Of a stretch of DNA of 42,684 nt, positions 1,357 to 42,684 are shown in pieces. The notes beneath the pieces were generated by a model. That model had not been told where the DNA came from, searched no databases, and worked only from the letters and a program-made list of their open reading frames with translations. The stretch covers positions 2,629,164 to 2,671,847 of the forward strand of contig CP070686.1 in the NCBI GenBank assembly GCA_020353055.1. The letters run 5' to 3'. How positions within the stretch are numbered: the stretch's first letter is position 1; the number at the start of each line of letters is the position of its first letter. This stretch comes from Caldifarciminota bacterium (GTDB taxonomy: Bacteria > Hydrothermota > Tepidihabitantia > SM23-42). Made by a program: the position numbers and the translations under genes.

Positions 1357-1730
1357 ATGTGGGGTAATCGGATAGCCGCTCCATGCGAGAGGAAAGTCCG
1401 GGCTTCACAGGGCAGGATGCTTCCTAACTGGAAGCCCCGCACCAATGGTGCGGGAGGAAAGTGCCACAGAAAATATACCGCCTTGTGCCTATGGTGCCGG
1501 GTAAGGGTGAAATGGCGAGGTAAGAGCTCACCGCCCTGGTGGTGACACCAGGGGCACGGCAAACCCCATCCGAAGCAAAACCAAGCAGTTCCAGTCGAGG
1601 TGGCCCGCCTTTTTCTGCCGTCTATGACGGCCGGGACTGGAATGGGTAGGTTGCGCAGAGCCCAGCAGCGATGTTGGGACAAGAGAAATGGCTATCTATT
1701 ACAGAACCCGGCTTATAGATTACCCCACAT
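1357..1730 (+). ncRNA. rnpB: RNase P RNA (bacterial, A-type-like)
   Basis: This is the catalytic RNA that trims tRNA 5' leaders. The ends pair: ATGTGGGGTAAT at 1357-1368 is complementary to ATTACCCCACAT at 1719-1730 (helix P1). The conserved core is present: GAGGAAAGTCCGGGC near 1389-1403 (P4 5' strand region), the GGAGGAAAGTGCCACAGAAA block near 1451-1470, and the 3' ACAGAACCCGGCTTAT block near 1701-1716 (P4 3' strand). Length of about 374 nt is normal for type A. No protein is encoded here; the open frames across it are fortuitous. No hairpin/U-tract terminator is visible at the 3' end and the recJ promoter begins 10 nt later, so 3' processing by nucleases is likely. The ends are set by pairing and may be off by a few bases. 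Confidence 0.95.
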
Positions 1731-1739
1731 CTGAAGCAG

Positions 1740-36852: not shown

Positions 36853-36923
36853 CTGGGGCGGGAGGAGTCGAACCTCCGCGCCAGGATCCAAAATCCTGTG
36901 TCCTGCCACTAGACGACGCCCCA
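36853..36923 (-). tRNA. tRNA-Gln (anticodon UUG)
   Basis: Cloverleaf on the minus strand: acceptor TGGGGCG pairs with CGCCCCA, D arm GTC/GAC, anticodon stem CAGGA/TCCTG with loop TTTTGGA giving UUG, T arm GGAGG/CCTCC with loop TTCGACT, discriminator G. CCA is not encoded. It lies inside an operon-like run between ispE and prs, 68 nt after ispE, so it may be cut from a longer transcript. Confidence 0.95.
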
Positions 36924-39132: not shown

Positions 39133-39186
39133 ATGCTTTCCATGTGGATAACTTTGTGGGTTTCTGTGGATAAACAAAATGACTGA
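39133..39186 (+). CDS. Short upstream open frame overlapping the dnaA start (17 codons)
   Basis: AAGGAG at 39121-39126 lies 6 nt before an ATG at 39133, an ideal spacing. The frame (MLSMWITLWVSVDKQND) ends with TGA at 39184-39186, past the dnaA ATG at 39179, which itself has no ribosome-binding site. Another ATG at 39129 opens a 14-codon frame ending at 39173. Either could couple translation to dnaA. Confidence 0.4.
   Translation: MLSMWITLWVSVDKQND
39143..39173 (+). promoter_or_regulatory. Two perfect DnaA boxes upstream of dnaA
   Basis: TGTGGATAA occurs at 39143-39151 and again at 39165-39173, same orientation, 22 bp apart (about two helical turns). This is the exact complement of the TTATCCACA consensus. 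They lie in the dnaA leader, so DnaA could repress its own gene and the area may be part of oriC. A T-rich tract lies at 38957-38980. Confidence 0.75.
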
Positions 39187-40694: not shown

Positions 40695-41789
40695 ATGGAA
40701 TTTAAAATCGGTAAAGGCGCATTGGAGAAAACGCTGAATAGTGTCGTGCGGATAATTCCTCCAAAAAGTACATACACTGTTTTACAAAATATCATACTGG
40801 AAGCAAAAGACAAAGAACTTTCGATCGAAGCAACCGATTTAGATATTTTCATAAAGAAAGTCATTCCCGCTGAGATCAAAGACACCGGAAAAGTCTTAAT
40901 CCCAGGTAAGAAGATACTTGAGATAACAAGAGAAACAAACGCGAAAGAGATCGGGTTCAAACTGAAGGAACTTAATCTACAAATTTCCGCAGGGAATGCG
41001 CATTTTAATATCCCTTCTTTAGACCATCAGGAATTTCCAGAGGTACCGAAATTCCCCGAGAAGAAATGGTTCGATATTAAGATCGGCGAAATCCAGGGAA
41101 TGGTTGAATCAACCATCTTCATGGTTGCCAAGGACATAAGCCGCAGGCCGATGAATGGTGTTCTCGTTCAATTAAAAGAAGGAGAGCTGAAATTCGTGAC
41201 CACCGATGGCGCTCGTTTAGCTATGTGTAGGGCCGAGAAGAAAGAAGCGTCGGGCGAGATTATTGTTGCGCCGAAATTGTTCGATCTCGTTGGCTACGAT
41301 AACCCCGACGAAATGATTGAGCTTTTCTCAGAAGAAAGAATGCTCGGTCTGAAATTTGCTGATACAACCGTCATTGCGCGGCTCATCGAGGGACCCTACC
41401 CCAACTATGAAGGGGTGATCCCGAAGACATTTGTCGGCAATTGTACTATTGAGAAAGATATTCTGGATGGTGCCCTAAAGAGAGTTTCTCTGGTTTCAAG
41501 TCCCCACATCAAAAACGTAAAGTTTGACTACAGTAGCGGGGGTATTGTTTTATCTGCTTCGTCGCCAGACATAGGTGAAGCAAAAGAAGAAATTCCCTGT
41601 GTGTATGAGGGTGAGAATCTCGCCATATGGTTCAATGCGAGCTACATAATTGAGATCCTGCGCCATGTGACCACCAGCGAGGTGGTTATGCAACTAACAT
41701 CGCAGTCAACCGCGGCTCTGCTCGGACCAAAAGCACAGGAAAATATATTGTATCTACTGATGCCTTTAAGGATCGAAGGGTGGGAATGA
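40695..41789 (+). CDS. dnaN: DNA polymerase III beta subunit (sliding clamp)
   Basis: 364 residues, the three-domain clamp length. Blocks include EFKIGKGALEKTLNSVVRIIPPKSTYTVL at the start and the DLDIFIKK region near 53. Later blocks are FMVAKDISRRPMNGVLVQLKEG near 140, TDGARLAMC near 170, LIEGPYPNYEGVIPK near 235 and the C-terminal LLMPLRIEGW, with the normal clamp ending of P-L/M-R. It forms the ring that tethers the polymerase. AAGGAGG lies 4-5 nt before the ATG. Its stop overlaps the ATG of the next gene by 4 nt, which ties a small exported protein to the replication genes. Confidence 0.97.
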   Translation: MEFKIGKGALEKTLNSVVRIIPPKSTYTVLQNIILEAKDKELSIEATDLDIFIKKVIPAEIKDTGKVLIPGKKILEITRETNAKEIGFKLKELNLQISAGNAHFNIPSLDHQEFPEVPKFPEKKWFDIKIGEIQGMVESTIFMVAKDISRRPMNGVLVQLKEGELKFVTTDGARLAMCRAEKKEASGEIIVAPKLFDLVGYDNPDEMIELFSEERMLGLKFADTTVIARLIEGPYPNYEGVIPKTFVGNCTIEKDILDGALKRVSLVSSPHIKNVKFDYSSGGIVLSASSPDIGEAKEEIPCVYEGENLAIWFNASYIIEILRHVTTSEVVMQLTSQSTAALLGPKAQENILYLLMPLRIEGWE

Positions 41790-42253
41790 TGAAGAAAATA
41801 GCAATTCTCTGTATTCTAGTCGTCCCGGTTATATTATCTGCTCAAAACCTGGGGCTTGGTATTATCCTGGGTAGCCCAACCGGGCTGTCGCTAAAATATC
41901 TATTAACAAAAACTTCCGCTTTCTCGGCACACGCCGGCTGGTCTTTTCATGAGGACCCGGGAGTTCATCTGACCGGGGATTATCAGCATCTCTTCCCAAT
42001 GGTGATCGAAACCGCGGAGGGAGCATCAATAAGCGATTTCACGCCGTACATAGCAGTGGGCGGTCGTTTTCGATTCAAGAAGGACGAGGAAACCGATGAC
42101 AATGAATTTCACCTGGGGATACGCATCGGCGGCGGCGTTGAATATAATATTTCCAAGTTCGGGATATTCGTCGAACTGCTGCCGGTTGTCGACCTTGTCC
42201 CCGAGACCAGCTTTGACCTGGAAGGCGGGCTGGGCTGCCTGTTTTACTTTTAA
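41786..42253 (+). CDS. Small exported beta-rich (outer-membrane-like) protein
   Basis: 155 residues. A signal peptide (MMKKIAILCILVVPVILSAQ) is followed by alternating strands (LGLGIILGSPTGLSLKYLL, AFSAHAGWSFH, YIAVGGRFRF, LGIRIGGGVEYNI, GIFVELLPVVDLVPETSF) ending GCLFYF with a terminal Phe, as in small eight-strand outer-membrane barrels. The function is unknown. The ATG at 41786 overlaps the dnaN stop (ATGA) with AAGGGTGGG just upstream; GTG at 41780 is an alternative. It lies between the clamp gene and a 23S rRNA promoter. Confidence 0.75.
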   Translation: MMKKIAILCILVVPVILSAQNLGLGIILGSPTGLSLKYLLTKTSAFSAHAGWSFHEDPGVHLTGDYQHLFPMVIETAEGASISDFTPYIAVGGRFRFKKDEETDDNEFHLGIRIGGGVEYNISKFGIFVELLPVVDLVPETSFDLEGGLGCLFYF

Positions 42254-42294
42254 TTCCCCGCGGCAACGGATTGTAAGAAAGTCTACATAGGGTA

Positions 42295-42322
42295 TTGACA
42301 ACGGAAGAAAAATGTCTATAAT
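42295..42322 (+). promoter_or_regulatory. 23S rRNA promoter P1
   Basis: TTGACA at 42295-42300, 16 bp spacer, TATAAT at 42317-42322. Full consensus, first of two tandem promoters before the rRNA gene. Confidence 0.85.
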
Positions 42323-42337
42323 AATAGGCTGTAGGTA

Positions 42338-42364
42338 TTTCGTCCCTTGACAGAAGGGGCGAAA
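42338..42364 (+). terminator. Strong hairpin between rRNA promoters P1 and P2
   Basis: TTTCGTCCCTT (42338-42348) pairs with AAGGGGCGAAA (42354-42364): 11 bp with one G-U pair and a 5-nt loop GACAG. The -35 box of P2 lies within it. In P1 transcripts it would form just after the start, but no U tract follows, so an attenuator or processing site is possible rather than certain. Confidence 0.45.
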
Positions 42365-42375
42365 ATGCTTATAAT
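42347..42375 (+). promoter_or_regulatory. 23S rRNA promoter P2
   Basis: TTGACA at 42347-42352, 17 bp spacer, TATAAT at 42370-42375. Full consensus. Downstream, TGATCTTTGAAAAC at 42400-42413 resembles the leader word (boxA-like antitermination region) found before many rRNA genes. Confidence 0.88.
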
Positions 42376-42433
42376 ATAATGCATAGATAAGAATCTATTT
42401 GATCTTTGAAAACTTATTTGGCGGAAGGTAACG

Positions 42434-42684
42434 GGTCCAAGTTAATAAGGGCGCATGGTGGATGCCTTGGCTTCTGGAGGCGATGAAGGGCGTGGTAGGC
42501 TGCGCAAAGCGTCGGATAGGTGCGAACAACCTTTGATCCGGCGATACCCGAATGGGGAAACCCATCCTGAAGAAATTCAGGATATTCTGTCGCAAGACAG
42601 AAGGTCAACCAAGGGAAGTGAAACATCTCAGTACCTTGAGGAAGAGATATTCCGAAAGTAGCGGCGAGCGAAATCGGAACAGCC
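42434..42684 (+). rRNA. 23S ribosomal RNA, 5' part
   Basis: The 5' end of 23S rRNA is recognised by TTAATAAGGGCGCATGGTGG followed by ATGCCTTGGC (about 42441-42470), then GGCGATGAAGGGCGTGG, GCTGCG and, near the edge, GAAGTGAAACATCTCAGTACC followed by the AGCGGCGAGCGAAA-type block. The gene runs off the right edge. There is no 16S gene upstream: a protein gene ends at 42253 and two promoters lie between. The exact 5' base is approximate. Open frames across it are meaningless. Confidence 0.95.

Follow-up and report, generated by a model that had tools for sequence, protein, structure and literature searches.

Does the 23S rRNA gene that follows dnaA and dnaN at the end of this stretch of DNA belong to a transcription unit of its own, apart from the 16S rRNA gene? 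The stretch (referred to as the window, 42,684 bases) corresponds to bases 2629164-2671847 of a 2,688,361-base sequence containing 100-N joins, and is exactly one contig with such a join on either side. It comes from the candidate phylum WOR-3, named Caldifarciminota by NCBI. We conclude with high confidence that 23S and 5S form a genuine transcription unit here, which is not linked to 16S and follows dnaA, dnaN and the gene of a 157-residue protein (P157) in an order of this phylum. For the coordinates of all features see Table 1.

Table 1. Features around the start of the 23S rRNA gene (positions in the window)
Feature	Position	Strand	Remark
Two perfect DnaA boxes, 22 bp apart	39143..39173	-	directly before dnaA; probable origin region
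dnaA	39179..40501	+	Pfam Bac_DnaA, 3.9e-69
dnaN, DNA polymerase III beta clamp	40695..41789	+	Pfam DNA_pol3_beta domains
P157, 157-aa protein	41780..42253	+	no Pfam match; between dnaN and 23S, kept in the order
Promoter P1, TTGACA-16-TATAAT	42295..42322	+	predicted; 12/12 consensus match
Promoter P2, TTGACA-17-TATAAT	42347..42375	+	predicted; 12/12 consensus match
BoxA-like antitermination element TTGATCTTTGAAAACTTAT	42399..42417	+	core TCTTTGA(A/C)AA in 16/16 leaders
5' arm of 23S processing stem TTGGCGGAAGG	42418..42428	+	in 16/16 leaders; pairs with 23S trailer in 5S contig
5' 250 bases of 23S rRNA gene	42435..42684	+	RF02541, 211 bits, model 1-269; truncated at contig end

The 23S gene and the dnaA-dnaN neighbourhood

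The 23S match begins at position 1 of the Rfam model, directly behind the promoters and with no 16S or tRNA spacer, as the earlier note had read it. The Rfam scan found no 16S in the window, which covers 42 kb upstream of 23S, and the sole tRNA of the window lies at 36853-36923 on the minus strand. Over its 250 bases the window copy shares 96.4% identity with the complete 23S gene of G003, a relative of the same genus. Because the window is a single contig between two 100-N joins, the 23S gene was broken by the assembly and its apparent truncation is an assembly break. No further 23S was found past the join downstream of the window. The last 112 bases of 23S together with the 5S gene are located at 1185373-1185638 of the same assembly, on the minus strand, and abut another 100-N join. 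At the other end of the window (1360-1731) we observed a bacterial class A RNase P RNA gene.

The placement behind dnaA and dnaN was confirmed by Pfam, with P157 between dnaN and 23S; its reading frame ends at 42253, where the last protein gene had been said to end. In relatives, P157 has tblastn matches at the same place. Every locus of the order whose sequence extends to the start of 23S, 16 of 16 with the window counted, shows the gene order dnaN-P157-23S, and dnaA is in view in 15 of them; the contig of the remaining one (L097) starts inside dnaN, so that dnaA is out of view. Two further loci (L095 and L096) end inside dnaN and are uninformative on gene order. The same order was present in all eight genomes found by their 5S gene (G003, G008, G015, G017, G019, G023, G024 and G025, families f1 and f2), which were therefore not picked for dnaN. 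Nine 23S loci from other families of the class (L062, L064-L067, L080-L082 and L085) do not adjoin dnaN. In one of the genomes, G047, a weak relative of P157 (31% identity; L082, 547-996) is located about 2.5 kb before 23S without a neighbouring dnaN.

That the locus lies near the probable origin is supported by the cumulative GC skew and by the two perfect DnaA boxes before dnaA, identified with a pattern that we take to be the DnaA box. In the window the skew minimum falls at 40 kb, at dnaA. The 5-kb bin with the minimum in G003 is the one that holds dnaA, and for G015 it is the bin that spans dnaA and ends at 150 kb. This is supportive but not proof, because gene direction also turns at dnaA. 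The same pair of boxes precedes dnaA in G003, and a third perfect box is found approximately 1.9 kb further upstream in both the window and G003. When up to one mismatch is allowed, five other 2-kb bins of the G003 contig have DnaA boxes at least as dense as the bin at dnaA; on the G015 contig the density peaks in the bin next to dnaA. The replication origin is thus probably located beside dnaA, a position from which 23S may gain a gene-dosage effect.

Promoters, leader and processing stem

The two tandem promoters at 42295 and 42347, described before as full-consensus, indeed match at all 12 positions and both lie upstream of 23S. A site of 12/12 did not occur in 2000 mononucleotide shuffles of the 185-base spacer of the window, and a scan at 9/12 yielded 3 sites in 895 bases compared to 1.1 (sd 1.0) in shuffles. 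We aligned 16 leaders running from P157 into 23S, including that of the window. A site of at least 10/12 at the P1 position is present in 14 of them; the leaders of G008 and CSMAG_2245 have no P1 at this level and thus one promoter only. A site of 11-12/12 at the P2 position is present in all 16. The 23S gene is directly preceded by a conserved predicted promoter of its own, as expected for an independent 23S-5S unit.

The genes dnaA, dnaN and P157 are on the same strand as 23S and separated by short gaps, and 23S could instead be mainly read through from them, with the tandem promoters being secondary. We consider this unlikely. P2 is kept in every leader while outside the kept elements the spacer has diverged, and its length differs as well (the extracts measure 184 to 325 bases); in addition, terminator-like sites precede 23S (4 at two places, the nearer at 42222-42245, versus 0.9 expected, sd 1.0).

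An independent 23S-5S unit is also in line with the remaining leader elements. The element behind P2 has a core of TCTTTGAAAA or TCTTTGACAA in 16 of 16 leaders, as counted from the alignment and by pattern match; we presume it to be a boxA, a name that rests on likeness to the bacterial consensus. Identified in this way, a boxA-like motif is present in these 23S leaders and in the five 16S leaders of the order, and NusB is encoded in 27 of 27 relatives (24 above the curated cut-off), the genome of the window included.

The stem arm TTGGCGGAAGG is fully complementary to CCTTCCGCCAA just 3' of 23S in the genome of the window and in G003, and other relatives keep most of CCTTCCGCCAA behind 23S. 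Co-folding of leader and trailer resulted in -37.9 kcal/mol for the genome of the window (shuffles -19.1, sd 3.1) and in -31.4 to -45.6 kcal/mol for seven relatives. The predicted stem joins the leader in the window to a trailer carried by the 5S contig, which supports both contig ends belonging to one gene. RNase III was found in 22 of 27 relatives (21 above the curated cut-off), again including the genome of the window; the search gave no match in the other five, among them G008 and G031, both with an unlinked 23S. The predicted pairing together with an encoded RNase III is consistent with a 23S stem of the RNase III type.

Linkage of 16S and 23S in the class and the phylum

No 16S match was found in the assembly of the window, so we infer the place of 16S in this genome. 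The named relatives are metagenome-assembled genomes; 23S places in the relatives were located with 996 bases of the G003 23S. Our linkage table comprises 66 16S places (all above 1000 bits, partial ones excluded), 80 of 123 23S places (those left out are mostly partial or at contig edges, and also include G007 and G075) and most, not all, 5S places.

The 23S gene that the contig end interrupts in the window is intact in G003, where the 23S-5S unit is complete (23S 2729 bits, model 1-2925); the 16S of G003 is located on a separate contig, and the 12-kb stretch that holds it contains no 23S. A full 16S together with a 23S place is available for 26 genomes of the class (24 from the table, G042 and G055 by hand). 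Twenty of these are clearly unlinked, with the two genes either on separate contigs that leave 1.5 kb or more of room, or on opposite strands. None is linked, and for six (G032, G044, G046, G055, G118 and G119) contig ends or contigs of unknown length preclude a verdict. In G031 and G041, 16S and the 3' third of 23S are on opposite strands with 381 and 275 kb between them. The genes of G056 are on opposite strands 321 kb apart, with no N in 12 kb around 16S or 8 kb around 23S; the distance itself means little, because the single sequence of this genome may be joined like that of the window. In G037 they are divergent with about 1.9 kb between the gene starts; there (L063, 1697-9921) dnaA and 16S share one strand and 23S-5S starts divergently from it.

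The window and the 20 clear genomes of the class thus show the unlinked arrangement, with no 16S within 1500 bp of 23S or with 16S on the other strand. The central claim of the earlier note, that 23S is unlinked from 16S, is borne out by 42 kb of upstream sequence without 16S and by the separate places of the 23S-5S and 16S units in relatives; a rearranged operon with 16S downstream was not found either, within about 10 kb downstream of 5S (L007). As far as gene order in these assemblies goes, the separate 23S-5S arrangement recurs throughout the relatives examined. Of the 40 class genomes tabulated, 33 have the 5S gene at a distance of 28-158 bases downstream of the 23S match; in the six of family f4 it is 1.3-1.7 kb from 23S or on another contig. 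An apparent 23S/5S split in G016 proved to be an artefact, as a 39-base match beside 5S had been omitted from the table.

We scanned 15 16S leaders for promoters over 260 bases. One site of at least 10/12 was present in 13 of them and two in G028 and G035. In the five 16S units of the order (G003, G008, G015, G017 and G024), a promoter of 11-12/12 lies ahead of a boxA-like element, and folding without shuffled controls predicts that leader and trailer of each form a long stem of their own. In four members of the window's family with enough sequence behind the gene (G003, G008, G015 and G017; stretches L068, 6415-8987, L069, L070 and L115) 16S is located directly before rpsP-khpA-trmD-rplS-rnhB, encoding S16, a KhpA-type KH protein, TrmD, L19 and RNase HII (Pfam names from G003 only). 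A UPF0102 protein comes next in three of the four; the G008 listing ends earlier. By tblastn, S16 is beside 16S in all four and in no other genome among 44 16S stretches, many of them short; G024, from the sister family, has no S16 cluster behind 16S. A further promoter-like site was observed between 16S and S16 in G003, G015 and G017. Some apparent 16S pieces have breaks near model position 873.

The absence of 16S from the assembly would also fit a reading in which this 23S is a surplus copy and an ordinary 16S-23S-5S operon was left unassembled; we regard this as very improbable. The genome of the window has a single 5S, as does each of the 50 (of 61) relatives with any; 28 of the 38 (of 61) with any 16S match have one, the other ten having several, mostly partial; and a linked copy was seen nowhere in the class. 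Least probable of all is an assembly artefact across 42254-42434, with a 23S fragment wrongly joined to the dnaN contig: the window contig does end inside 23S, and the contigs of bin1351 (G007) break at the same two 23S positions, 252 and 2931, which suggests a shared assembly problem, but 15 further loci, drawn from several records, have the same junction, complete with P2, the boxA-like core and the stem arm, and three loci of the order (L048, L053 and L056) are complete 23S-5S units by Rfam. The shared break positions suggest that near-identical 23S genes of co-occurring species broke the assembly.

Beyond the class, the genuine, unlinked 23S-5S unit can be compared with other layouts. A search of 147 genomes of the phylum yielded 53 with a full 16S and a 23S place (49 from the table; G042, G055, G062 and G093 by hand). 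Both genes are on the same contig and strand in three (G084, G099 and G145), on the same contig but opposite strands in four and on different contigs in 46; the bins of the linked-looking G084 and G099 have two or more 16S matches each. Outside the class there are 3 linked genomes and 24 with different contigs, 17 of the latter with at least 1.5 kb of room. Canonical 16S-tRNAIle-tRNAAla-23S-5S operons were observed in single genomes of two families: G145 is linked with tRNA-Ile and tRNA-Ala, as is G063, where the operon is cut at the 16S side. Between the two tRNA genes in the 16S-23S spacer of G063 lies a 389-residue open reading frame (L116, 413-1582).

In 10 of 20 5S stretches outside the class (L119, L122, L123, L125 and L129-L134) no 23S was found in about 7 kb of N-free sequence upstream of 5S. 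These represent ten families with one genome each (G072, G087, G088, G103, G121, G127, G133, G136, G138 and G141). The 16S, 23S and 5S genes are at three separate places in seven of the ten (G072, G087, G088, G127, G133, G136 and G138), with a firm 16S-23S verdict in five and too little room in G133 and G138; G121 and G141 are without a full 16S and G103 is without a 23S match. Since canonical operons and splits that free 5S also occur in the phylum, WOR-3 shows, on the layouts compared here, several stages of rRNA operon break-up.

Several 23S genes of relatives carry inserts (L057, 2738-3446, minus strand; L058, 4250-4951, plus; L135, 11040-11321, plus; L128, 2711-4187, minus). Group I introns were identified among them by Rfam in G017, G019 and G145, and LAGLIDADG endonuclease reading frames in G019 and G116. 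A putative intron is also reported for the WOR-3 strain sy37 in the accessible part of its description (PMC12285271).

Proposed mechanism and relation to known systems

Based on these data we propose the following route to the two rRNAs. RNA polymerase would start at P1 and P2, both of the sigma-70 type. The boxA-like element would recruit NusB-type antitermination, so that the untranslated 3 kb are read to the end. Leader and trailer of 23S are predicted to pair into a local stem, at which RNase III would cut. The 16S rRNA would be made from a separate unit at another place, equipped alike with promoter, boxA-like element and stem, as seen in relatives. That both units share this equipment suggests that each rRNA is produced, guarded against premature termination and excised independently. 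With separate 16S and 23S-5S units, subunit balance must come from something other than co-transcription, and could be set by promoter strength, chromosomal position and shared regulation.

Split rRNA operons had been said to be known from several lineages, and unlinked rRNA genes are indeed described. They are defined by a 16S more than 1500 bp away from 23S (Brewer et al. 2020, ISME J 14:597, as cited in the accessible parts of PMC7761764, PMC11261877 and PMC8172020). The present locus shares this separation; it differs in its position after dnaA-dnaN and in the leader elements, and WOR-3 was not found named in those parts. According to the sections of PMC7761764 at hand, Wolbachia and Helicobacter pylori likewise have 16S apart from a 23S-5S unit, with separate maturation of the split units in H. 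pylori, Buchnera has 16S without 23S, and most unlinked genomes belong to symbionts with reduced genomes, in contrast to the 2.7 Mb of the window's assembly. CPR genomes, as far as the excerpt of PMC8172020 goes, have unlinked 16S and 23S and sometimes 23S and 5S; the clade-specific patterns, including 5S apart from 23S, resemble those found here in another phylum.

No description of rRNA layout in WOR-3 or Stahlbacteria was found in the literature searched, a limited library, and neither was the name Caldifarciminota or anything on split rRNA units of Thermus. In the available text on strain sy37, which belongs to the same candidate phylum as the window (PMC12285271), the word operon is absent and rRNA layout was not found discussed; a word search of the available text of a WOR-3 survey (PMC12542636) gave no 23S, operon, unlinked or 5S rRNA.

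The locus is a real, well-conserved and new case of a known phenomenon, unlinked rRNA genes; the lineage it contributes has an ordinary-sized genome, and the anatomy is clean. More tentatively, a stepwise operon break-up may be preserved in one phylum, with both units of the window's family at fixed, meaningful addresses; we regard this as possible rather than probable. If true, the split into 16S and 23S-5S would be the stage of the class, and ten other families would have freed 5S as well. The 23S-5S unit, mostly with two promoters, would have its address beside the origin behind dnaA-dnaN, and the 16S unit, with a single promoter, ahead of the S16/L19 ribosomal protein cluster. How many promoters each unit has and how far it lies from the origin would in that case determine the balance of the subunits.

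Amplicon methods that span 16S and 23S would miss such genomes. The natural series of linked genes, two units and freed 5S offers a handle on how 16S and 23S are balanced without co-transcription, a question that is testable because, according to the accessible part of PMC12285271, a WOR-3 isolate has been cultured and its genome published.
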